From the NCBI GenBank assembly GCA_017627275.1, contig JAGAHC010000056.1:16204-80203 (forward strand): a stretch of 64,000 nucleotides of DNA, given 5' to 3'. This stretch comes from Lachnospiraceae bacterium (GTDB lineage: Bacteria > Bacillota > Clostridia > Lachnospirales > Lachnospiraceae). The notes under the pieces are model-generated. The model worked only from the letters and a program-made list of their open reading frames with translations, did no database searches and had not been told where the DNA came from. Below, piece by piece: positions 53,801 to 64,000 of this stretch (position 1 is its first letter; the number at the start of each line of letters is the position of its first letter). Position numbers and translations under genes: made by a program.

Positions 53801-55829
53801 TATCGGGACACTGGTGGCGGATCGATACGAGATCCTGGATAAGATCGGAACCGGCGGCATGTCCGATGTCTATAAGGCAAAGGACCATAAACTGAACCGG
53901 CTGGTTGCCGTAAAGATGCTGAAGACGGAGCTCTCCGAGAATGCGGACTTCGTTTCCAAATTTCGTGTGGAAGCGCAGGCGGCAGCAGGACTCATGCACC
54001 CCAATGTCGTGAATGTCTATGACGTCGGCGAGGAAAAAGGCGTCAATTACATCGTCATGGAACTGGTCGACGGCATCACCTTAAAGAAATACATCGAAAA
54101 GAAGGCCAGACTTTCCGTCAAGGAAGCCATCAGTATTGCCATTCAGGTATCGATGGGCCTGGAGGCCGCACACAAAAACCATATCATTCACAGGGACATC
54201 AAACCCCAGAACATCATTATTTCCAAGGAAGGGAAGGTCAAGGTTACCGACTTCGGCATCGCAAAGGCGGCGACCAGCAACACCATTACCTCCAATGTCA
54301 TGGGATCGGTCCACTATACCTCTCCGGAACAGGCGCGCGGCGGCTATTCGGATGAGAAGTCGGACATCTATTCTCTGGGCGTTACCATTTTCGAAATGCT
54401 GACCGGCCGTGTGCCGTTTACGGGAGAAACGACGGTGGCGATCGCCATCAAGCATATCCAGTCCGAGATGCCTTCTCCCTGCGAATACGTGCCGGAGATC
54501 CCGGTCAGCGTGGAACAGATCGTCATGAAGTGCTGCGAGAAGTCTCCGGACCGGCGCTATCAGAATATGAGCGATCTGATCGCGGACTTAAAACAGTCGC
54601 TCCTCCATCCGGATGACGACTTCGTCAAGGTCATCCGTGAAGAGGAGATCTCGCCGACCATGCCGATCGAAGATCTGCACGCCAGAGAAGAGTATCCGCA
54701 GGAACCTTATGACGAACCTGCGCCTTACGAAGAGGAACCGTACGAGGAAGACCGATACGGAAGGGATTACTACGAACAGGAAGAGTACCCGGAGGACTAT
54801 GAAGAGGTTCCCGAAGAACCTGTCAGAAAGAGAAAGGTCGTCCGGAAAAAGAAAGAGACCGTAAGCAAACCGCGCCGGAAGAAAGTGGTGCGGAAGGTGT
54901 ACGAGGATGAGTATGAAAGCCCCGGCATCGACAGCAAATGGATCAGCCTCGTCATCATTCTGGGAGCGGTCCTGATCGGAATGCTTGTCATCTTCTTTGC
55001 GGCAAGAAGGCTCGGCCTCATCGGCGGAGAGAATGACCCTGCTCCGGCATCGAGTGCGCCGCCAATCATCATCGAGCAGGAAGCCAGCGAGAACGTACCC
55101 GCAGAAACCGGTACGCCCGCCAGCACGGAAGAAACACAGGCGGCAGAGGACGATGTTGTCGTCCCCAATGTCGTCGATCAGAAAAAGGATATTGCCAGAG
55201 GACGTCTGGAGTACCAGGGATTCAAGGTCAACGTCATGGAAAAGCCGGATGACGAGATCGAGAAAGACTATGTCATCTCGCAGGATCCGGCGGGGCAGTC
55301 CACCGCCAAGGAAGGGAGTGTGATCACCCTGACCGTGAGCACCGGCCCGGATACGGAAGGAAAGGTCCGTGTTCCCAATCTTCTGTACCGTACGGAAGAG
55401 GAAGTCCGGCAGATCCTGGAAGACAATGAACTGACGCTGGGTGAGATCACCTACGTAGATGCGGAAGAAGCCGCTCATAAGGGACGCGTGATCACGCAAA
55501 GCGTTCCGGACGGAGAATATATTGAAAAAGAGGAGCCGATCGACCTGACCATCGGGAAGAAGTCTTACATGTACGCTTCCGATATTACGGCGCCGACGGC
55601 AGCAGAAGACCCGCAATACGCGGCGGGGACACCGGTCTATGTCGTCATCTGGACGGCATCCGGCGAAAAGAAGTTTGACCAGGTTCTCTCGACGCTTCCT
55701 TATCCGGTGCAGTTCAAGGGCATGTCGGACGATCACGGAAGACTGGAGATGGCCTATACCAATATCCTGCCGGACGGAACCGCACAGCAGCAGCACATCG
55801 TGCGGGAACTGACCTTTACGGCAGAATGA
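53793..55829 (+). CDS. prkC: PASTA-domain serine/threonine kinase PrkC
   Basis: PrkC senses cell-wall fragments and phosphorylates division, wall and translation targets. In the 678-residue protein the kinase domain is 10-270 (GTGGMSDVY, VAVKML, HRDIKPQNI, DFGIA). Residues about 297-340 are extremely Tyr/Glu/Pro-rich, followed by a strongly basic stretch (341-365), then one transmembrane helix (about 385-407). Outside are two PASTA domains (about 450-590), fewer than the three or four often seen, then a C-terminal beta-rich domain of about 85 residues. It overlaps rsgA by four bases. Confidence 0.95.
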   Translation: MINIGTLVADRYEILDKIGTGGMSDVYKAKDHKLNRLVAVKMLKTELSENADFVSKFRVEAQAAAGLMHPNVVNVYDVGEEKGVNYIVMELVDGITLKKYIEKKARLSVKEAISIAIQVSMGLEAAHKNHIIHRDIKPQNIIISKEGKVKVTDFGIAKAATSNTITSNVMGSVHYTSPEQARGGYSDEKSDIYSLGVTIFEMLTGRVPFTGETTVAIAIKHIQSEMPSPCEYVPEIPVSVEQIVMKCCEKSPDRRYQNMSDLIADLKQSLLHPDDDFVKVIREEEISPTMPIEDLHAREEYPQEPYDEPAPYEEEPYEEDRYGRDYYEQEEYPEDYEEVPEEPVRKRKVVRKKKETVSKPRRKKVVRKVYEDEYESPGIDSKWISLVIILGAVLIGMLVIFFAARRLGLIGGENDPAPASSAPPIIIEQEASENVPAETGTPASTEETQAAEDDVVVPNVVDQKKDIARGRLEYQGFKVNVMEKPDDEIEKDYVISQDPAGQSTAKEGSVITLTVSTGPDTEGKVRVPNLLYRTEEEVRQILEDNELTLGEITYVDAEEAAHKGRVITQSVPDGEYIEKEEPIDLTIGKKSYMYASDITAPTAAEDPQYAAGTPVYVVIWTASGEKKFDQVLSTLPYPVQFKGMSDDHGRLEMAYTNILPDGTAQQQHIVRELTFTAE

Positions 55830-56740
55830 GGAAAGGCAAGATCATCAAATCCGTCGCCGGCTTCTATGAAGTCCATGACGGGAGTACGATCTACAGGTGC
55901 CGCGCCAAGGGCGTGTTCCGGGCGTTGAAACAGAAACCGCTGGTCGGAGATGATGTGGAATTCGACATCACCGATACCGTGAGCATTCCTCCGGAGGGCA
56001 ACGTAACCAGGATACTGCCCCGCAGATACAGCCTGATCCGGCCGAATGTGGCGAATGTCGACCAGGCACTTCTTTTATTTGCAATCACGCATCCTTCGCC
56101 CAGCTTCAATATGCTGGATCGCTTTCTGATCACGATGTCGAGCAAGAATCTTCCGGCCATCCTGTGTTTCAACAAAGAGGATCTGGCGGAAGAAGACGAG
56201 AAGAGAGAACTGCTGTTGTCCTATGCGGACTGCGGATGTCAGGTGCTCTTTATCAGCACATTTGAAAAAGAATCTCTGCTTCCCCTGCAGGAGATCCTTG
56301 CCGGGAAGACAACGGTCCTGACCGGACCGTCCGGTGCGGGGAAGAGTACCCTGATCAATACGCTCTGCGGGGAAGAGCGGATGCAGACGGGGGAACTGTC
56401 CAGAAAGATCTCCCGCGGGAAGAATACCACCAGGCACGTGGAACTCTTAACGGCAGGATCGGACACCTATCTGGTGGATACACCGGGATTCACATCCCTC
56501 TTTCTGATGGGGATGGAACCGGAGGAGCTGAGCGCTCATTACCCGGAATTCGAGCAGTATGCGGGTGATTGCAGATTTGATACCTGCAGACATTTTAAGG
56601 AACCGGACTGTGCGGTAAAAGAAGCTGTTGCACAGGGCAAGATCAGCAGGATCCGGTACAGGAACTATACGGAACTGTACGAAGATCTGCTGGATCAGAA
56701 AAAGAAAAACCCCGGAAAGGGAAGAAGAGGCGATCTTTGA
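55826..56740 (+). CDS. rsgA: Ribosome small-subunit GTPase RsgA
   Basis: RsgA is a circularly permuted GTPase that checks late 30S maturation. The 304-residue product has an N-terminal OB fold, G4 FNKEDL, G1 GPSGAGKST, G3 DTPGF and a C-terminal zinc site in CRFDTCRHFKEPDC. The rlmN-stp-prkC-rsgA order is typical of Firmicutes, where rpe and thiN usually come next; here the transporter-like gene follows with a four-base overlap. Confidence 0.95.
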   Translation: MRKGKIIKSVAGFYEVHDGSTIYRCRAKGVFRALKQKPLVGDDVEFDITDTVSIPPEGNVTRILPRRYSLIRPNVANVDQALLLFAITHPSPSFNMLDRFLITMSSKNLPAILCFNKEDLAEEDEKRELLLSYADCGCQVLFISTFEKESLLPLQEILAGKTTVLTGPSGAGKSTLINTLCGEERMQTGELSRKISRGKNTTRHVELLTAGSDTYLVDTPGFTSLFLMGMEPEELSAHYPEFEQYAGDCRFDTCRHFKEPDCAVKEAVAQGKISRIRYRNYTELYEDLLDQKKKNPGKGRRGDL

Positions 56741-58347
56741 GAATCGATCCCTATCATCAATCTTTTCCGCTCACCGGAAAAGCCATCGACGTGTTTTCCC
56801 TTCAGATTGACAAGGCACTGACCGATATCGAGATGGAGCGGGAGAATCGTCTGCGCATCCGCCTTTCCATGGAAGAGGCGCTTTTACGGATGCGGGACCG
56901 CTTCGGAGATGATCAGGAAGTCGAAGCGTCCATTGAAAAGCACTTCGGACGTCTGGCGATCCAGGTGAAGCTGGAAGGCGAAGTCTACAACCCCCTCAGC
57001 GAAGAAGAGACCGATCTGGAGGATATGTGCAGCGCGCTTTTGACGACGCTCGGAATCAGCCCGCAGTACATCTATGACGGAAGGATCAATATCCTGAGAG
57101 TCCAGATCCCGCTGCCCGGGATGCGCCCGCTCTTTAAGATCGTTGTCTCCATTCTGGGAGGCGTCATCCTCGGACTCCTTTTCAAGGCGCTGCCGGACGG
57201 AGGGGTCGTTTCCTATGTCGAACGCGAGATCCTCAGTCCTTTCTATGACCTGTGGGGCAGGATCCTGAATCTGGTCTGCGGACCGATCATTTTCCTCATT
57301 ATTATTACCGCGACACTGAACGGTCAGAAGATCTCCGACTACGGAGGAGACAATAGACGGATCCTCGCAAGATACTTTTTTTTATCCATGCTGATCACAG
57401 GCATTGCCATGATCCTAACTCTTTTCATCTATCCGACGCCGGCCATGATCTGGTCTGCGGAGCACAGTTCGGACGGCCTTTTCCGGTTCATCATGGAAAT
57501 GATCCCGGATGATTTTGTTTCCCCGTTTCTGGAATCCAACACGCCGCAGCTGTTTCTGATGGCGGTCGTGATCGGCGGCGCCATAAACGCCATGGATACC
57601 CATGTAAAGAATCTGACACGCATCATCAGACAGGCTAACGACGTGGGCCTGCGTGTGGCGGAATGGGTCAGCCGGTTTTCTCCTTTTGCGATCAGCATCC
57701 TGCTGGGATATGAGATCCTGATGGGAAGGACCTTTATCCTCTTTGGTCTCTGGAGCTGCATCCTGATCGCCTTGCTCCTTTCCGTCATGTTTATGGGAGT
57801 CCGTCTCCTTCTTCTTGCCAAAGCACAGAACGTTTCGCCGAGACTCCTTTTAAAGAAGGTCTGGAAACCGTTTGCCATTGCGGTATCGACCGGGTCGTTA
57901 GATGCTTCCTACGGCCAGCTGGAGAGGAGCTGTATCAGAGAACTGGGATTACAGAAAAATTTCACAAAGATTTCACTTCCGAACGGTATGATTATCTATA
58001 TGCCGGTCTCGGAAATCGGAACGGTGGCTTTCATGGTATTTGTCGCAACGCGGTATAATGTGGTTACGACACCGAGCTGGTTTTTGATTGCAGCGGTATT
58101 GTCAGTCATGCTGTTTGTCGCTACACCGCCGGTGCCCGGGGCGAACCTGATCGCGTTTATTGCCTTGTTCCATCAGCTTCAGATCCCGCAGGAGGCACTG
58201 ATCGATGCCATGATCTTTGACATTATCTTTGGATTGTTTGCGAATGCTGCGAACCAAATGATGTTACAATTAGAGATGGTATCGATAGCGGACCGGATGG
58301 GACTGTTGGATAAAAAACTGCTTGCCGGGGAAATGAAGTCAACATGA
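56737..58347 (+). CDS. Dicarboxylate-symporter-like membrane protein with degenerate GHKL-like N-terminal domain
   Basis: A 536-residue protein with two parts. Residues about 130-525 are polytopic and resemble the DAACS (glutamate/dicarboxylate:cation symporter) family, with an HP2-like TPPVPGANLIAFIALFHQ and ANAANQMM in the last helix. The usual NMDGTA motif (here IIYMPVSEIG), the serine-rich HP1 motif (AVSTGSLDASYG) and the Asp/Arg ligand residues of the last helix are missing, so normal dicarboxylate transport is doubtful. Residues about 15-115 resemble an RsbW-type ATPase fold: MEEALLRMRDRFG in place of EExxxN, and LEGEVYNPL in place of DxGxPFDP, with no G2 box; ATP binding is probably lost. 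The start is TTG 56737 behind GAAGAAGAGG, overlapping rsgA. It adjoins STAS and GHKL genes, so I infer that partner-switch proteins control it. Confidence 0.75.
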   Translation: MRIDPYHQSFPLTGKAIDVFSLQIDKALTDIEMERENRLRIRLSMEEALLRMRDRFGDDQEVEASIEKHFGRLAIQVKLEGEVYNPLSEEETDLEDMCSALLTTLGISPQYIYDGRINILRVQIPLPGMRPLFKIVVSILGGVILGLLFKALPDGGVVSYVEREILSPFYDLWGRILNLVCGPIIFLIIITATLNGQKISDYGGDNRRILARYFFLSMLITGIAMILTLFIYPTPAMIWSAEHSSDGLFRFIMEMIPDDFVSPFLESNTPQLFLMAVVIGGAINAMDTHVKNLTRIIRQANDVGLRVAEWVSRFSPFAISILLGYEILMGRTFILFGLWSCILIALLLSVMFMGVRLLLLAKAQNVSPRLLLKKVWKPFAIAVSTGSLDASYGQLERSCIRELGLQKNFTKISLPNGMIIYMPVSEIGTVAFMVFVATRYNVVTTPSWFLIAAVLSVMLFVATPPVPGANLIAFIALFHQLQIPQEALIDAMIFDIIFGLFANAANQMMLQLEMVSIADRMGLLDKKLLAGEMKST

Positions 58348-58394
58348 CGCATGCGGCACAGATGTAGTCATTGAGAAGAAAGGAGTTATGACAC

Positions 58395-58694
58395 ATGTTA
58401 AACATCACAAAGAACCTTGACGCCGGTGCTTTGAATGTGGCGCTGGAAGGAAGACTGGACACGACAACGGCGCCGGAGCTGGAAGAGTCCTTGAAGGAGT
58501 CTTTCGAGGGCGTACAGGATCTGACGATCGACCTGGAGAAACTGGAATACATTTCCTCCGCAGGCCTGCGTGTGCTTCTGTTTGCGCAGAAGACGATGAA
58601 TAAGCAGGGCACGATGAAGGTCGTCAAGGCAAGTGATACCATCATGGAGATCTTCGAAGTCACCGGCTTTTCGGATATCCTGACGATCGAATAA
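58395..58694 (+). CDS. STAS domain protein (anti-sigma-factor-antagonist type)
   Basis: A 99-residue single STAS domain, like SpoIIAA or RsbV. The central YISSAGLRVLL contains the serine pair (Ser54/Ser55) where RsbW-type kinases phosphorylate such proteins. Known relatives bind a GHKL kinase when unphosphorylated and are reset by a SpoIIE-type phosphatase; both kinds of partner are encoded downstream. The start is ATG 58395 behind AAAGGAG. The sequence is closely similar to the N-terminal domain of the next gene, with the same YISSAGLRVLL motif. Confidence 0.93.
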   Translation: MLNITKNLDAGALNVALEGRLDTTTAPELEESLKESFEGVQDLTIDLEKLEYISSAGLRVLLFAQKTMNKQGTMKVVKASDTIMEIFEVTGFSDILTIE

Positions 58695-58737
58695 CGTTTT
58701 CGATCTGCCGGCTTTTTGAAAGAAAGAAGGTGGAATC

Positions 58738-60330
58738 ATGTATAAAGTGGAAGGGAAAAAGACGGATAACGGATTGGAATGCAAGTTATCCGGAAGGGTC
58801 GACTCTACCAATGCTCCGCAGGTGGAAGAGGAACTCAACGCGCTGATCGGAGGAGAAGAAGGACAGGCAGTCACCGTCAACATGGAGGACCTGGAATACA
58901 TTTCCAGTGCCGGACTGCGGGTGCTTTTGCATTTGAAAAAAACCTGCCCGGATCTTAAGATCACCGACGTGAATTCCGAAGTCTATGAGATCCTGGACAT
59001 GACGGGCTTCACGCAGATCATGACCGTCGAGAAGGGATACCGCGTCGTATCCGTGGAAGGCTGTGAAGAGATCGGAAGAGGCGCCAACGGCACCATCTAC
59101 CGCATCGACCAGGACAATGTCGTGAAGGTCTACAACAATGCGGATGCCTTAAAAGACATCCAGCATGAAAGAGAAGTCGCACGCACGGCGCTGGTGCTCG
59201 GCGTGCCGACAGCGATCTCCTATGACGTCGTAAAGGTCGGCGACAGTTACGGTTCGGTGTTTGAGCTTTTGAATGCCAGATCGTTTTCGAAGATCCTTGC
59301 GGATGAACCGGAGAAGATGGACTGGTGCGTGAATGAATTCGTAAAGATGTTAAAGATCATTCATGCCACTCTCGTTCCGGAAGGAAAACTTCCCGACATG
59401 TACGATACCGTGTACGGCTGGGTGACATTTATGCGGGACTATCTTCCGCAGGAAGCATCCGACAAGCTCATCGCGCTCATCGACGCGGTGCCCCGTGACA
59501 ACCACATGATCCACGGTGACTATCATATAAAGAATCTGGAACTGCAGGGAGATGAAGTCCTCCTGATCGATATGGATACGCTGGCGGTGGGCTACCCGAT
59601 ATTTGAACTGGGATCCATGTATAACGCCCTGATCGGCTTTTCCGAATATGATCACGAGAACATCAAGAGCTTCCTGGGGATCGATTTCGAGACCGGGAAG
59701 ACCTTCTGGCACAAGACGCTTGCCGCCTATCTCGGAACGGTGAACGAAGAAAAGATCAGGGAAGTCGAAGACAAGGCCAGGATCATCGGCTATACGAGAA
59801 TGATCCGCCGCTCCATCAGAAGAAAGGGACTGGAGTCGGAGAGGGGCAAAGCCGAGATCGAACTGTGGACAAAGGAACTGGTGGAACTTTTAAAGGAGAC
59901 GGATACCTTGTTGTTCTCACGAAACGAACTGGAGATTGAAGCGGAAGTTAAGAATTGGGACAGAGTGCTTGCCTTTATCAATGAGCATCTGGAAGAAGCT
60001 AACTGCCCGCCGAAAGCGGAAGCGCAGATCGCGCTGGCCGCGGAAGAGATCTTTGTTAATATCGCTAATTACGCGTATCGTCCGGAGGTCGGCAATGCTA
60101 CGGTCCGTGTGGAAGTGATGGACAACCCGGTTGCCGTGGAACTTACCTTCATGGACCAGGGCAAACCGTACGATCCGTTAAAGAGAGACGACCCGGATAT
60201 TACGCTGCCCGCAGAAGAAAGAGAGATCGGCGGACTCGGGATCTTTCTTGTGAAACAGACAATGGACGATGTGTCCTATGAATACAAGGACGGACGCAAT
60301 ATTCTGCGCCTGAAGAAGAATCTGGAGTAA
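58738..60330 (+). CDS. STAS + phosphotransferase-like kinase + GHKL ATPase fusion
   Basis: A 530-residue three-domain signalling protein. Residues 1-97 are a STAS domain with serines 56/57 in YISSAGLRVLL. Residues about 105-375 are an aminoglycoside-phosphotransferase/choline-kinase-like fold: a glycine-rich GRGANGTIY loop, VVKVY lysine, catalytic HGDYHIKN (H259, D261, N266) and metal-binding D278-M-D280; from memory it resembles TIGR02172 proteins. Residues about 385-530 are an RsbW-type GHKL ATPase with intact N-box (E436-E437, N441), G1 (D473-Q-G475-K-P-Y-D-P) and G2 (GGLGIFLVK). Antagonist and anti-sigma-type kinase are thus joined in one chain with a second kinase. No sigma factor is near. 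The substrate of the middle domain is unknown. Confidence 0.88.
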   Translation: MYKVEGKKTDNGLECKLSGRVDSTNAPQVEEELNALIGGEEGQAVTVNMEDLEYISSAGLRVLLHLKKTCPDLKITDVNSEVYEILDMTGFTQIMTVEKGYRVVSVEGCEEIGRGANGTIYRIDQDNVVKVYNNADALKDIQHEREVARTALVLGVPTAISYDVVKVGDSYGSVFELLNARSFSKILADEPEKMDWCVNEFVKMLKIIHATLVPEGKLPDMYDTVYGWVTFMRDYLPQEASDKLIALIDAVPRDNHMIHGDYHIKNLELQGDEVLLIDMDTLAVGYPIFELGSMYNALIGFSEYDHENIKSFLGIDFETGKTFWHKTLAAYLGTVNEEKIREVEDKARIIGYTRMIRRSIRRKGLESERGKAEIELWTKELVELLKETDTLLFSRNELEIEAEVKNWDRVLAFINEHLEEANCPPKAEAQIALAAEEIFVNIANYAYRPEVGNATVRVEVMDNPVAVELTFMDQGKPYDPLKRDDPDITLPAEEREIGGLGIFLVKQTMDDVSYEYKDGRNILRLKKNLE

Positions 60331-60331
60331 G

Positions 60332-60790
60332 ATGGATATTTCTTCGAGATACAAGTACATGCGCATCCAGGGACAGGAGCTGGCAGAGAACACCATGCAC
60401 GGAAAAGGCATTTTCAGCATGTGCTGGCAGCTGGTCCAGAGCGATGTGATGGATGAGGAGGATGTCGGTCTTTTCAAGGAGATCGACGACTGGTTCGCCT
60501 ATACGCTTCCCTGGCCTCCGCCGTGCCAGAGGCAGGAGAAGGTAATCTGTTTCTTTAAAACAGAGAACTACGATGAAATGATGAAGATGATAAGACCGGC
60601 GCTCTGGCTGCTCGATCGTTATCATCACCCATACTATCTGGTCTATACGAACACGCCCGGGGAGATCGTATACGAGGATCAGTACCAGGTGTGCGTCAAG
60701 GTCTCGGGAGAACTGCAGATTGACAAGATGCAGGAGTCCTGGAGTCCGGAAGATCTGGATGAGGAGACCGGTCTTCCAAAACGTGAGTGA
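60332..60790 (+). CDS. Uncharacterised 152-residue protein in the partner-switch cluster
   Basis: I do not recognise the family. The protein is soluble, rich in aromatic residues, Met and acidic residues, without signal peptide or membrane helix. Notable short segments are WFAYTLPWPPPCQRQEKV, WLLDRYHHPYYLVYTN and a charged C-terminus. It starts one base after the triple-fusion stop and overlaps the next small gene by eight bases, so it is clearly part of this unit. A role as an adaptor or sensor for the switch is only an inference from position. Confidence 0.72.
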   Translation: MDISSRYKYMRIQGQELAENTMHGKGIFSMCWQLVQSDVMDEEDVGLFKEIDDWFAYTLPWPPPCQRQEKVICFFKTENYDEMMKMIRPALWLLDRYHHPYYLVYTNTPGEIVYEDQYQVCVKVSGELQIDKMQESWSPEDLDEETGLPKRE

Positions 60791-61025
60791 CTTTCAAACA
60801 GAGAAAAACTATGGCCTCTGTAGCATTCTCGTATCACTGACGATTCTAATCGCGGATCTTTTGTTGAAAGGGCCTGTCGGCCTCGTTTTATCCTTCGTGC
60901 TGCTTGCCGCGATCCTTCTCGGAGCGCCGATCGGCATCGGGCCCCTTCTATGTACCTTACTGGCGGGCTTTTTATTTCAAATGGTTTGCGGGGCCTTTCG
61001 CTTTGACCCCAAAAGCGTCAACTGA
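60783..61025 (+). CDS. Small two-helix membrane protein
   Basis: An 80-residue protein, if GTG 60783 is the start (overlapping the preceding stop). It has two hydrophobic segments (about 13-40 and 42-64) joined by GAPIGIGPLL, and ends in AFRFDPKSVN. This resembles the last part of YczE/YitT-type membrane proteins, which are normally about 200 residues, so it may be a truncated remnant or a genuine short relative. The start codon and ribosome site are weak. Confidence 0.5.
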   Translation: MSDFQTEKNYGLCSILVSLTILIADLLLKGPVGLVLSFVLLAAILLGAPIGIGPLLCTLLAGFLFQMVCGAFRFDPKSVN

Positions 61026-61073
61026 GTGAAATGACAGTTTGAGGAAACGGAGTTTTCAATAGGGAGAGGAAAA

Positions 61074-62147
61074 ATGAAAAAGAAGATGACACGTGTTCTG
61101 GCAATCCTGATGACGGCGGTCTTTCTGACAGCCTGTGCAGGGCAGAGTGCGCCTGCTGCAGAGCCCGCGGAGGAGCCGGCGGAAGAAGTGACCGAAGAAT
61201 CAGCGGAAGAGACTACGGAGGAAGCGGCAGCAGAATCCGCAGAAGAGGCGGCGGAAGAAACGACAGAAGAAGCCGCGGCGGAAGAAGAGACTACGGAAGA
61301 AGCTGCATCGGAGGAAGCACCGGAAGAGGAAACAGCCTACGCGGACTATGTGTATCCGGGAGATGATGCGGTTCTGAAGGCTGCTTACGAATACATGGCA
61401 AAGGAGATCGGAAGCCAGTATATGGAGGGACAGCTTTCCATTCCTTCGGTCCGTCTGGTTCACATCGACGATACGGAAAAAGACGCGCCGAAGGTCTTTG
61501 CGGATTTCTGGGCTTACCAGTACGATGTCGATGGCGATACGTTAAAGACGGTCTCCGGCGGTTCCCATCCCGGCTGCATGCAGTTGAAAGCGGAAGGGGA
61601 CGGATATGTCGTGGAAGCGTTCGAAGTGGCTGCGGACGGATCGGAGTTTACGGAAAGCGCCAAAAAGATCTTCGGGGACTACTATGAAGACTTTTCGGAA
61701 ATGTTCAGTGACGACGTGCAAAGAGAAGAGCAGCGTCTTCAGGACATCGCGGACTTTGTGACAGCCAACGGCCTGGAAGTGACGAAGGTCGAAGACTACG
61801 GCTGGGATCCGGTGGAGATCCCGCTTGTCACGCAAGAACCGATGAGCATCGGCGGCATGACGGGCGGCTGGGAGATCGCAGAGGGAGAAGACACAGCGAT
61901 CCCTGCGGAAGTGGAAGAAGCATTTGCCAAGGCAACGGAAGGACTTCTCGGGAATGATCTTACACCGATCGCCTACCTCGGCTCGCAGGTCGTCAGCGGC
62001 AAGAACTATGCGCTGCTCTGCAAGAGCACCAAGGTGACGGCGAATCCGGTCACCGGATTGCAGGTCGTCATCGTCTATGTCAACACCAAGGGTGAGGCTG
62101 AGATCAAGAGCATCGAGGACTTTAAGATCGAAGATTATAACAACTGA
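61074..62147 (+). CDS. Lipoprotein with acidic repeat linker and cystatin-like C-terminal domain
   Basis: A 357-residue lipoprotein. The signal peptide ends in FLTAC, followed by a very acidic Ala/Glu/Thr linker (about 28-88). Residues about 90-255 form an unrecognised domain. The last 95 residues resemble a cystatin fold: GGW near the start, a helix (EEAFAKATEGLLGNDLTPIA), then the loop Q305-V-V-S-G309, which matches the cystatin QxVxG protease-binding loop, and beta strands ending EAEIKSIEDFKI. It could inhibit cysteine proteases outside the cell or be a structural relative. It starts behind AGGGAGAGG within the partner-switch group. Confidence 0.78.
   Translation: MKKKMTRVLAILMTAVFLTACAGQSAPAAEPAEEPAEEVTEESAEETTEEAAAESAEEAAEETTEEAAAEEETTEEAASEEAPEEETAYADYVYPGDDAVLKAAYEYMAKEIGSQYMEGQLSIPSVRLVHIDDTEKDAPKVFADFWAYQYDVDGDTLKTVSGGSHPGCMQLKAEGDGYVVEAFEVAADGSEFTESAKKIFGDYYEDFSEMFSDDVQREEQRLQDIADFVTANGLEVTKVEDYGWDPVEIPLVTQEPMSIGGMTGGWEIAEGEDTAIPAEVEEAFAKATEGLLGNDLTPIAYLGSQVVSGKNYALLCKSTKVTANPVTGLQVVIVYVNTKGEAEIKSIEDFKIEDYNN
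61161..61341 (+). repeat. Degenerate acidic coding repeat in the lipoprotein linker
   Basis: Repeated GAAGAA, GCGGAAGAA and ACGGAAGAA units encode short EE-A/S/T-A-EE blocks. It is a low-complexity linker lifting the folded part away from the membrane, and its repeats make it prone to length change. Confidence 0.7.
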
Positions 62148-62185
62148 TATCGAACAGACCGGGGAAGAAGGAAAAGAAAGAGACG

Positions 62186-63661
62186 ATGAGCTTTACATTA
62201 TCTGGCGTCAACATGATCAATGTGTTCTTTATAGCGGCCGGTGTCGGCGTCTGCGGACTGTCAATCATGCAGATCAGGTCGTCCACCCATCTGGAAAAGA
62301 ATGTCCGCTGGTACTTTCAGGTCTTTTTTCTTCTGGTTGAAATCTATATCCTGACGCATCTGGCCAGACTGCTTATGGAAGGGATGCCAGGCAGCGGGAT
62401 CCGTACAGCCTTGTATGCCGTTACCCTGGTGGAGATGATCTCCGCCGGGGTCACGGCATTTATGATGTCAGTCGTGATTCTGATGGGATCCAGGACCGGA
62501 AAGCATGAGCGGAAACTGCAGATTGTGCTCCTGATTCTTTTGGGGGTCCATGTTCTTTTTCTGGTCGTTTCCCAGTTTTCAGGAGCAATCTTTTACTTTG
62601 ACGAGGCCAATCTGTATCATCGGGGGCCGCTGTATCTGCTTTCCAATCTGAACCCCCTCATCATGCTTTTGCTCGATGCCTGGCTGCTCGTCCGCTACAG
62701 GGAGAACATGTCCAAACGGGCCAGGATTGCTTTCTGGGTCTACATTATCGCACCGGTGGTCGCGATCGTGATCCAGAGTTTCAGCTATGGCATTCAGTAC
62801 ATTATCTTTGCGACCGTCGCCGCGGCAGTTTTTATGTTCTTTGCTGTCCTGCAGGATCTGAATGAACAGTACAGGCAGCAGCAGGAGTCTGCCGCCCGCA
62901 TCAGCACGGAACTGGATATGGCGACGGGGATCCAGGCCAGCCAGATGCCGCACCTGTTCCCGGCATTTCCGAACCGCAAGGAGTTTGAAGTGTATGCGGG
63001 AATGACGCCGGCCAAAGAAGTGGGAGGAGACTTTTACGATTTCTTCCTGATAGACGAGGATCATATTTGTCTGGTAATGGCGGATGTATCCGGCAAAGGA
63101 GTACCGGCGGCGCTTTTCATGATGGTCGCACGCGTCCTGATCAAAGCGCATCTTCAGAACGGCGAATCGCCGGGAGAAGCGCTCAAGAATGTGAACGAGC
63201 AACTGTGCGAAGGAAATGAGGCGGCGCTCTTTGTGACGGTGTGGCTGGCAGTGCTGGAGATCTCTACGGGGAAGGGCGTTGCGGCGAATGCGGGACATGA
63301 GCACCCCGCCCTGCGCAGGGCAGACGGAGAGTATGAACTGATCGTCTATCCGCACGCGCCGGCGCTTGCCGTGATGGAAGGGATCCCTTTTAAGGAGCAT
63401 TCTTTTGATATGCATCCGGGTGACACGCTGTTCGTGTATACGGACGGGGTGCCGGAGGCGACCAACGCGGAAAATGAACTGCTCGGAACGGAGAGGATGC
63501 TGCAGGCGCTGAACAGGGAGCCGGACGCATTTCCCGAAACCGTGTTAAAGAATGTCATGGACGGGATCCAGGACTTCGTGCAGGGCGCGGAGCAGTTTGA
63601 TGATATTACCATGCTGTGCATTCGGTATAACGGGATGCAACAATTCGAGGAAGGCAAATGA
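62186..63661 (+). CDS. Seven-TM SpoIIE/RsbU-type PP2C phosphatase
   Basis: A 491-residue membrane phosphatase. Seven hydrophobic segments fill about residues 8-225, followed by a short helical linker (QEQSA-type, about 226-255) and the SpoIIE domain: EVGGDFYDF (D282), ADVSGKGVPAALFM (D300), NAGHEHPALR, VYTDGVPEATN (D420) and DDITML (D472/D473). Such enzymes dephosphorylate STAS antagonists in response to a signal; the membrane part is the probable sensor. The likely substrates are the STAS protein at 58395 and the STAS domain of the triple fusion. The start ATG 62186 follows AGAAAGAGACG. Its end overlaps the amidase gene by four bases. Confidence 0.92.
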   Translation: MSFTLSGVNMINVFFIAAGVGVCGLSIMQIRSSTHLEKNVRWYFQVFFLLVEIYILTHLARLLMEGMPGSGIRTALYAVTLVEMISAGVTAFMMSVVILMGSRTGKHERKLQIVLLILLGVHVLFLVVSQFSGAIFYFDEANLYHRGPLYLLSNLNPLIMLLLDAWLLVRYRENMSKRARIAFWVYIIAPVVAIVIQSFSYGIQYIIFATVAAAVFMFFAVLQDLNEQYRQQQESAARISTELDMATGIQASQMPHLFPAFPNRKEFEVYAGMTPAKEVGGDFYDFFLIDEDHICLVMADVSGKGVPAALFMMVARVLIKAHLQNGESPGEALKNVNEQLCEGNEAALFVTVWLAVLEISTGKGVAANAGHEHPALRRADGEYELIVYPHAPALAVMEGIPFKEHSFDMHPGDTLFVYTDGVPEATNAENELLGTERMLQALNREPDAFPETVLKNVMDGIQDFVQGAEQFDDITMLCIRYNGMQQFEEGK

Positions 63662-64000
63662 AGGTTGCACTGTTGCAGATGAAGGTGACTGCCAATAAAG
63701 AGGAGAACATCCGCCACGCGGGCGAGCTGCTTGCAAAGGCGGCACAGGCGGACTGCGATATAGCGGTCCTTCCGGAGATGTTCAGCTGTCCGTATTCCAC
63801 GAAGTATTTTCGGGAATACGGAGAGGAGCAAAACGGCCCGGTACAGGAGGCGCTCTCGTGCTTCGCAAAGCAGAACGGGATCTATCTGATCGGCGGAAGC
63901 ATTCCGGAATTGGAGGGGGACAAAGTCTACAATACGTCCTATGTCTATGACCGGGAGGGAAGGCAGATTGCAAAGCACCGCAAGGCGCATCTTTTTGATA
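63658..64000 (+). CDS. Carbon-nitrogen hydrolase (nitrilase family), cut by the window end
   Basis: The first 114 residues of a nitrilase-superfamily amidase. The catalytic Glu is in AVLPEMFSCPY (E40) and the catalytic Lys lies in KHRKAHLFD just before the cut; the Cys would be beyond the window. The sequence is closest in feel to omega-amidase/Nit2-type enzymes (LFD after the Lys). The ATG overlaps the phosphatase stop (ATGA), so it is probably co-translated, though a functional link is unproven. Confidence 0.88.
   Translation, partial: MKVALLQMKVTANKEENIRHAGELLAKAAQADCDIAVLPEMFSCPYSTKYFREYGEEQNGPVQEALSCFAKQNGIYLIGGSIPELEGDKVYNTSYVYDREGRQIAKHRKAHLFD

Follow-up and report, generated by a model that had tools for sequence, protein, structure and literature searches.

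The window analysed here, a 64,000-nucleotide stretch of a Lachnospiraceae genome (GCA_017627275.1; bases 16204-80203 of contig C49; genome 1.74 Mb, 98.8% complete), carries near its end a set of partner-switching genes headed by a transporter-like protein of the SDF family (Table 1). Here dGHKL stands for a degenerate GHKL-type domain, and a centred dot for the fusion of domains in one protein. A sequence-only reading of the window had described a STAS gene, a GHKL kinase fusion, a SpoIIE phosphatase gene and the transporter-like gene as consecutive and co-directional, with two small unknown proteins and a lipoprotein between switch genes (60332-62147, + strand); all were confirmed at their positions on the + strand.

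Table 1. Features of the partner-switching locus, in window coordinates.
Feature	Position	Strand	Basis or remarks
dGHKL·SDF transporter-like protein, 536 aa	56737..58347	+	Pfam SDF 141.7 bits, residues 133-507; start TTG
N-terminal degenerate GHKL (RsbW/SpoIIAB-like) domain, residues 1-132 (as modelled)	56737..57132	+	hhalign, AF2 and PDB matches
SDF transporter core, canonical motifs lost	57133..58344	+	alignment with class A homologues
Single-domain STAS protein, 99 aa, SSAGLR	58395..58694	+	Pfam STAS 57.4 bits; TIGR00377 75.6 bits, above cut-off
STAS·APH·GHKL fusion, 530 aa	58738..60330	+	Pfam STAS, APH, HATPase_c_2
STAS domain of the fusion	58738..59034	+	49.4 bits; SSAGLR motif
APH-type phosphotransferase domain of the fusion	59038..59892	+	Pfam APH 46.0 bits; HGDYHIKN, IDMD
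GHKL kinase domain of the fusion	59914..60327	+	HATPase_c_2 84.1 bits; ATP-site motifs intact
Unknown protein, 152 aa	60332..60790	+	no family above cut-off (Pfam, NCBIfam)
Small hydrophobic protein	60783..61025	+	probable GTG start at 60783, inferred
Lipoprotein, Glu/Ala-rich linker	61074..62147	+	signal-like start with LTACAG; no family above cut-off
Seven-transmembrane SpoIIE (PP2C-type) phosphatase	62186..63661	+	Pfam SpoIIE 166.8 bits; seven hydrophobic peaks upstream of the phosphatase domain

Switch genes and the transporter-like protein

The phospho-acceptor serine motif SSAGLR is kept in both STAS domains of the window, and the phospho-acceptor motif was found in 68 of the 69 STAS proteins encoded in related loci. 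In the fusion the N, G1 and G2 boxes of the GHKL domain are intact (EEIFVN, MDQGKPYDP and GGLGI), and the phosphatase domain contains GGDFYD, DVSGKG, TDG and DDIT, which we take to be its metal-site and catalytic motifs. The STAS serine motif and the three GHKL boxes would have the functional roles known from partner switching. Searches of the whole genome gave three STAS_2, three SpoIIE and six HATPase_c_2 matches; three of the last six scored above the cut-off, that of the fusion being the strongest.

The hydrophobic peaks of the SDF protein begin at residue 131, after an N-terminal domain that gave no match to HATPase_c_2 at E values up to 1. Among homologous N-termini 15 of 25 matched this family within the same limit, the best with an E value of 7.6e-6. 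Alignment of the N-domain profile with that of 17 true GHKL domains by hhalign gave 98% (E 1.9e-13), as against 0.7% for a column-reversed control. When the AF2 model of residues 1-132 (pLDDT 88.5) was compared with PDB structures, RsbW (14.2), SpoIIAB (13.8) and UsfX (13.5) led the matches, followed by SiaB (10.7), LvrC (10.2) and other kinases (at most 8.4). Foldseek agreed in pointing to RsbW/SpoIIAB-type anti-sigma kinases. As modelled, the N-terminus of the transporter has a GHKL fold of the RsbW/SpoIIAB type.

In the window protein the N-box Asn is replaced by Arg and the G1 Asp by Leu, and the G2 glycines are absent. The N-box Asn was present in 3 of 54 dGHKL·SDF homologues versus all 43 true GHKL domains, and at the G1 position 49 of the 54 dGHKL domains have one of the eight commonest residues, among which Asp is absent. 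Judged by these substitutions, the ATP site of the domain is lost. The GHKL-like domain ascribed to the transporter by the sequence-only reading was upheld as to its fold, but the domain is degenerate and lacks ATP-site residues.

The SDF core itself scored above the Pfam cut-off of 27.9 bits. Two classes were distinguished among 25 aligned homologues: class A keeps the usual SDF motifs, and class B, to which the window protein belongs, does not. The class A motifs SSS/N, NMD and N..GD are replaced by GSLDASYGQ, IIYMP and AANQMML in the window protein. By a motif rule applied to 54 proteins (window left out), 25 were assigned to class A and 29 to class B. In SDF transporters the serine-rich, NMDG and N..GD motifs take part in binding substrate and Na+. 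These canonical motifs are missing from the window protein and its clade, a loss that appears to leave room for a receptor role.

These features suggest a sigma-less partner switch whose membrane partner is the SDF-type protein, a reading to which we give a probability of about one half. The dGHKL domain is RsbW-like, has lost its ATP site and sits on a transporter beside intact STAS, GHKL and SpoIIE parts; the most likely reading is that it serves STAS as a docking site. In the proposed mechanism the GHKL domain of the fusion would phosphorylate the STAS serine, and the seven-transmembrane SpoIIE protein would dephosphorylate it upon a signal from outside or from the membrane. Unphosphorylated STAS would quit the active GHKL domain and dock on the GHKL domain of the SDF protein that lacks an ATP site, and docking would set the transport or gating state of that protein. 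Sequences and models reveal the parts with their motifs, an N-terminus that is folded like RsbW and has lost its ATP site, and the presence of the same parts in other genomes (see below); from these we infer the phosphorylation and docking of STAS and whatever this may do to the SDF core.

That the canonical SDF motifs are missing from the window's SDF protein and from its clade is more in keeping with a receptor than with a pump. This protein might be a transporter turned sensor: it would bind a solute and retain or release STAS via its dGHKL domain, and the signal would pass from the membrane first to STAS and then to STAS·APH or to some other target. Two STAS domains together with an APH kinase of intact motifs could then serve as the output. 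Such a receptor role is conceivable but doubtful, since the seven-transmembrane SpoIIE protein already provides an input and the same domain type is found on canonical-looking SDF transporters and on MATE proteins (see below), where it is more easily read as a means of transport control.

The APH domain of the fusion scored above its Pfam cut-off (23.2 bits); against the APH-like family TIGR02172 the fusion reached 101.6 bits, below the NCBIfam cut-off of 228.2. Its AF2 model (pLDDT 94.0) matched mostly aminoglycoside phosphotransferases among the best 50 Foldseek rows (E 2.5e-9 to 2.9e-8). Of the 37 APH-type proteins in the loci read, 34 also have a STAS domain, and in 33 the HGD.....N motif is conserved. 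These counts and the modelled APH fold would suit a scheme in which the kinase is the output, the phospho-state of STAS gating the phosphorylation of a small molecule or a protein while the SDF protein only tethers the complex. We consider this scheme very improbable: no substrate is known, and the strongest comparative link is that of GHKL-type domains with transporters. In L083 and L084 a STAS·APH gene adjoins an HD-domain gene (HD_4 by Pfam in L083, a similar-looking open reading frame in L084).

Besides that of the window, one full STAS·APH·GHKL protein was found in 150 genomes of the family (G109, 70% identity); in the rest of this sample the STAS·APH and GHKL matches were on separate frames. 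The genus yielded two further full-length fusions (67-69% identity) and a third cut by a contig end. A scan of GTDB genomes gave 12 fusion loci, of which 11 matched across all three domains; they are labelled Clostridiales, Clostridia, Bacillota, Lachnospiraceae or Ruminococcus, and 7 of the 12 name goat or cattle omasum or rumen. SpoIIE matches numbered about 2.2 per genome in the 150 genomes (138/139 non-zero values summed), a figure not used in any test.

The intergenic gaps across the run from the SDF gene to the SpoIIE gene are at most 48 bases. The TTG start codon of the SDF gene overlaps the rsgA stop codon, and the 3' end of the SpoIIE gene overlaps the next gene, CN_hydrolase, by 4 nt. 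Upstream, rlmN, a PP2C phosphatase gene, a PASTA kinase gene and rsgA precede the SDF gene, the usual arrangement of these four genes. The PrkC-type kinase and PP2C phosphatase were considered as parts of the system and set aside, both sitting in the run with rlmN and rsgA. Pattern scans of 55700-64000 gave no sign of a gene-cluster boundary (6 promoter-like sites versus 5.5 in shuffled sequences, 11 terminator-like sites versus 7.0). In the lipoprotein the signal sequence is followed by a long linker rich in Glu and Ala (window 61160-61340). Of 61 further genomes of the genus, 17 encode relatives of the 152-aa protein at 63-80% identity (18 of 62 with the window's own). Support for it as a conserved core part was not found, and L144 alone, among the loci checked for it, has a copy near a fusion gene, 5.6 kb off.

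Related transporter genes in other genomes

The surroundings of 54 dGHKL·SDF genes were read, with the window left out; the flanks were often short. Many further profile matches were left out, G353:C1, G290:C8, G313:C6, G215:C12 and G280:C20 among them, as were most of the phylum-wide matches of the N-domain profile. In the phylum-wide sample this profile, which also picks up true GHKL domains, matched 16 of 398 genomes, a count that takes in the window's own genome and others of the family. Within 8 kb, 10 of the 54 (L149, L162, L165, L172, L182, L187, L192, L194, L201 and L206) have a partner-switching or MATE·GHKL gene, and 8 of the 54 have one within 300 bp in the same direction. None of 21 plain SDF genes had such a neighbour. 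Among the first 11 dGHKL·SDF loci, which came from the family sample, none had a partner-switching gene nearby; the linked loci came from a search of the genus (L149, L162, L165 and L172) and then from a wider profile search.

One other genus has the full set of parts again, and others, also outside the family, have subsets of it. In L182, from another genus, STAS–SpoIIE·GHKL–dGHKL·SDF–STAS·APH form one run, which has all domain types of the window switch, in another order and with GHKL on SpoIIE; its SDF protein is the closest of the 54 to that of the window (47% identity). The order is STAS–GHKL–SDF–SpoIIE in L187, STAS–SDF–SpoIIE–SpoIIE in L206 and SDF–STAS–MATE·dGHKL–gap–SpoIIE–GHKL in L201. 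Within the genus, L162 has SpoIIE–SDF, L165 has STAS·APH–SDF, and L149 contains the SDF gene, an opposite-strand gene, STAS, GHKL and STAS·APH. Outside the family two of four loci were linked (L269, STAS–SpoIIE·GHKL–SDF; L272, STAS–SDF). For the window's own starred clade (10; window left out), a clade picked post hoc from the tree, the comparison with plain SDF genes was 4/9 versus 0/21 (p 0.0046).

The N-domain profile also matched the C-terminal domains of MATE proteins. The tails of 19 MATE proteins gave a 99% profile match with true GHKL domains, and three of five MATE proteins checked were above the Pfam HATPase_c_2 cut-off. Partner-switching genes were found within 8 kb in 16 of 20 MATE loci, several of which had been chosen for these very genes; among the 13 loci whose tail was found by the N-domain profile, 10 have partner-switching neighbours. 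A second cluster, which includes a TPR·GGDEF gene, was found in the window's own genome: SpoIIE and MATE·GHKL genes are on contig C31 (L230 788-4988, + strand), and a membrane protein of 302 aa that ends in a dGHKL tail is encoded on contig C4 (L220 591-1496, - strand). C31 and the end of C4 overlap by 141 identical bases.

Taken together with the SDF loci, these proteins suggest, tentatively and at somewhat less than even odds, a class of Bacillota partner switches acting on transport and not on transcription, in which STAS, GHKL and SpoIIE would set the activity of unrelated transporters (SDF, MATE and perhaps a third, small membrane protein), each with an RsbW-like STAS dock of its own, active or worn down. 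If this is true, a phospho-switch would act directly on transport in bacteria, and the domain common to SDF and MATE proteins would be a marker for finding further systems in genomes.

The clusters in L089, L091, L092 and L093 have the form STAS…MATE…SpoIIE–GHKL and contain GH3, sugar-transfer ATP-grasp, formyltransferase or LPG_synthase_C genes (Pfam was run on L089, L091 and L092). By this gene content they look like biosynthesis clusters with an exporter of their own.

Several findings weigh against a switch acting on the SDF protein. For 44 of the 54 dGHKL·SDF genes (22 of 25 in class A and 22 of 29 in class B) no partner-switching gene lies in the surrounding 8 kb, or in as much of it as was available, and 5 of the 35 loci with at least 5 kb on both sides have such a neighbour. 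The contrast with plain SDF genes is weak (10/54 versus 0/21, Fisher p 0.053; 8/54 with directly adjacent genes only, p 0.097). The link in L192 is provided solely by a MATE·GHKL gene, the opposite-strand gene of L149 splits SDF from STAS, SpoIIE of L172 (genus) is on the opposite strand, and L270 and L271, the other two of the four loci outside the family, are without a link. Conserved gene order in relatives, the lack of which the sequence-only reading had named as a refutation, was not found. The order varies between loci while the parts recur, which makes it unsuitable as a test, and it was dropped. The MATE tails range from intact to degenerate, with the N-box Asn in 6 of 19, and some of them may therefore be kinases and not clients. 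G120 and G128 have a dGHKL·SDF gene and no GHKL relative among the matches listed.

The 44 genes lacking such neighbours and the varying order could mean that the neighbours in the window came together by chance, the dGHKL·SDF gene standing after rsgA beside an unrelated partner-switching cluster; its start codon overlaps rsgA, and it is the last in a run of housekeeping genes. We think this improbable. Co-directional neighbours within 300 bp for 8 of 54 genes have a p value of 7e-8 at an assumed 1% per gene, and of 1e-5 at 2%, and the set, whole or in part, turns up again in several genera and also in families other than this one. On the tree the neighbour label needs nine changes, of which at least seven are forced by starred branches, gains and losses of linkage being indistinguishable; 78 of 500 shuffles were as low, so the label is scattered on the tree.

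Co-occurrence was counted in the 150 family genomes. A relative of a part of the fusion (E 1e-10 or better) was present in 10 of 10 genomes with a dGHKL·SDF gene versus 33 of 140 others (p 1.6e-6), in a test for which the cut was chosen post hoc, G128 barely passes, kinship is ignored and the same genomes are assumed in both underlying searches; it does not serve as main evidence. Two dGHKL·SDF genes without switch neighbours have similar-looking trios of unknown genes beside them (L164 5488-7713 and L166 6912-9172), with proteins of 163-177, 388-402 and 176-177 aa.

Sigma factors

As regards a sigma factor of the SigB/SigF type, the genome (98.8% complete) has three Sigma70_r2 matches, proteins of 668, 209 and 191 aa. 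By length and neighbours they are read as RpoD, SigH-like and ECF-like, in this order; the SigH-like gene adjoins an RNA methyltransferase-like gene. The absence of a sigma factor from the window, asserted by the sequence-only reading, was borne out with these three proteins as phmmer queries: no sigma-like open reading frame of at least 60 aa was found in the window at E values up to 0.1 (RpoN-type factors were not searched). No cognate sigma gene stands beside the module in the window; the contig ends where the window ends, and sequence downstream of this point is unseen.

Relatives with a sigma gene in place, the other refutation named, were found to a limited extent, and they too speak against a transporter as the target. 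ECF-type genes occur in or beside two related clusters, between STAS genes in L100 (13937-14413) and just before the SDF gene in L201 (15036-15533), and at greater distance in L141 (opposite strand) and L172 (about 1.7 kb from SpoIIE). By the queries used, these four of 114 annotated loci hold a sigma-like gene, all matched by the ECF query. Such genes, and the two sigma-like genes besides RpoD in the window's genome, would suit a switch whose target is a transcription repressor, or a SigH-like or ECF-like sigma factor with its gene at another place, the SDF gene being a mere neighbour. This is unlikely in view of the window without a sigma-like frame, of the low count of loci that hold one, and of the RsbW-like domain fused to the transporter itself.

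The proposal that the switch acts on the membrane protein and not on a sigma factor has fared unevenly: the RsbW-like N-terminus, the recurring parts and the MATE parallels favour it, and the unconserved order, the 44 of 54 unlinked genes and the ECF genes of L100 and L201 do not.

Relation to known systems

Partner switching is known chiefly as a means to free sigma factors, and the SpoIIAA/AB/E and RsbV/W/U circuits control a sigma factor normally encoded beside them. The window resembles these systems in having a STAS protein, a GHKL kinase and a phosphatase of the SpoIIE type, with the motifs to be expected of them; it differs in that no sigma factor is adjacent, the GHKL domain is fused to STAS·APH, and the transporter homologue bears a second, degenerate GHKL domain. 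In CbrA-type symporter·histidine-kinase fusions a transporter core is likewise joined to a GHKL-fold domain, which is an active kinase engaged in two-component phosphotransfer, whereas the domain of the window protein is RsbW-like and has lost its ATP site.

SiaA, SiaB and SiaC of Pseudomonas aeruginosa work like a partner switch, and the structure of SiaB was among the PDB matches of the SDF N-domain model. In this SiaABCD system SiaC binds and activates the diguanylate cyclase SiaD (PMC8457831). The target there is a cyclase bound at its stalk; the candidate target in the window is a transporter with a GHKL-like domain. For SypA, BtrV, RbaV and HmpV the STAS targets are described as still unclear and may or may not include sigma factors (PMC8256260). 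The likeness to the window lies in a STAS protein acting on a target still to be named, and the difference in that no transporter with a GHKL-like domain appears in the sections of that account drawn on here (PMC8256260). CapK and CapS, an anti-sigma-like kinase and its STAS-like substrate, likewise form a pair without a sigma factor, but CapS is a DNA-binding repressor (PMC13373217).

STAS domains are also described as acting on transporters or belonging to them, as may be the case in the window: in MlaFB a STAS protein binds the ABC ATPase of a transporter (PMC7367683), and in SLC26/SulP proteins the STAS domain is part of the transporter (PMC8256260). The portions of these two sources considered here mention neither a GHKL/SpoIIE phospho-switch nor a transporter-borne GHKL-like domain (PMC7367683, PMC8256260). 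Among the open-licence PMC matches listed, an SDF or MATE transporter as the target of a STAS/GHKL/SpoIIE switch was not found by title or abstract opening. Partner-switch-like systems with non-sigma targets (CapK/CapS and SiaABCD) and STAS action on transporters (MlaFB and SulP) are already known; beside them, transporters with an RsbW-like domain of their own name a concrete, testable STAS target.

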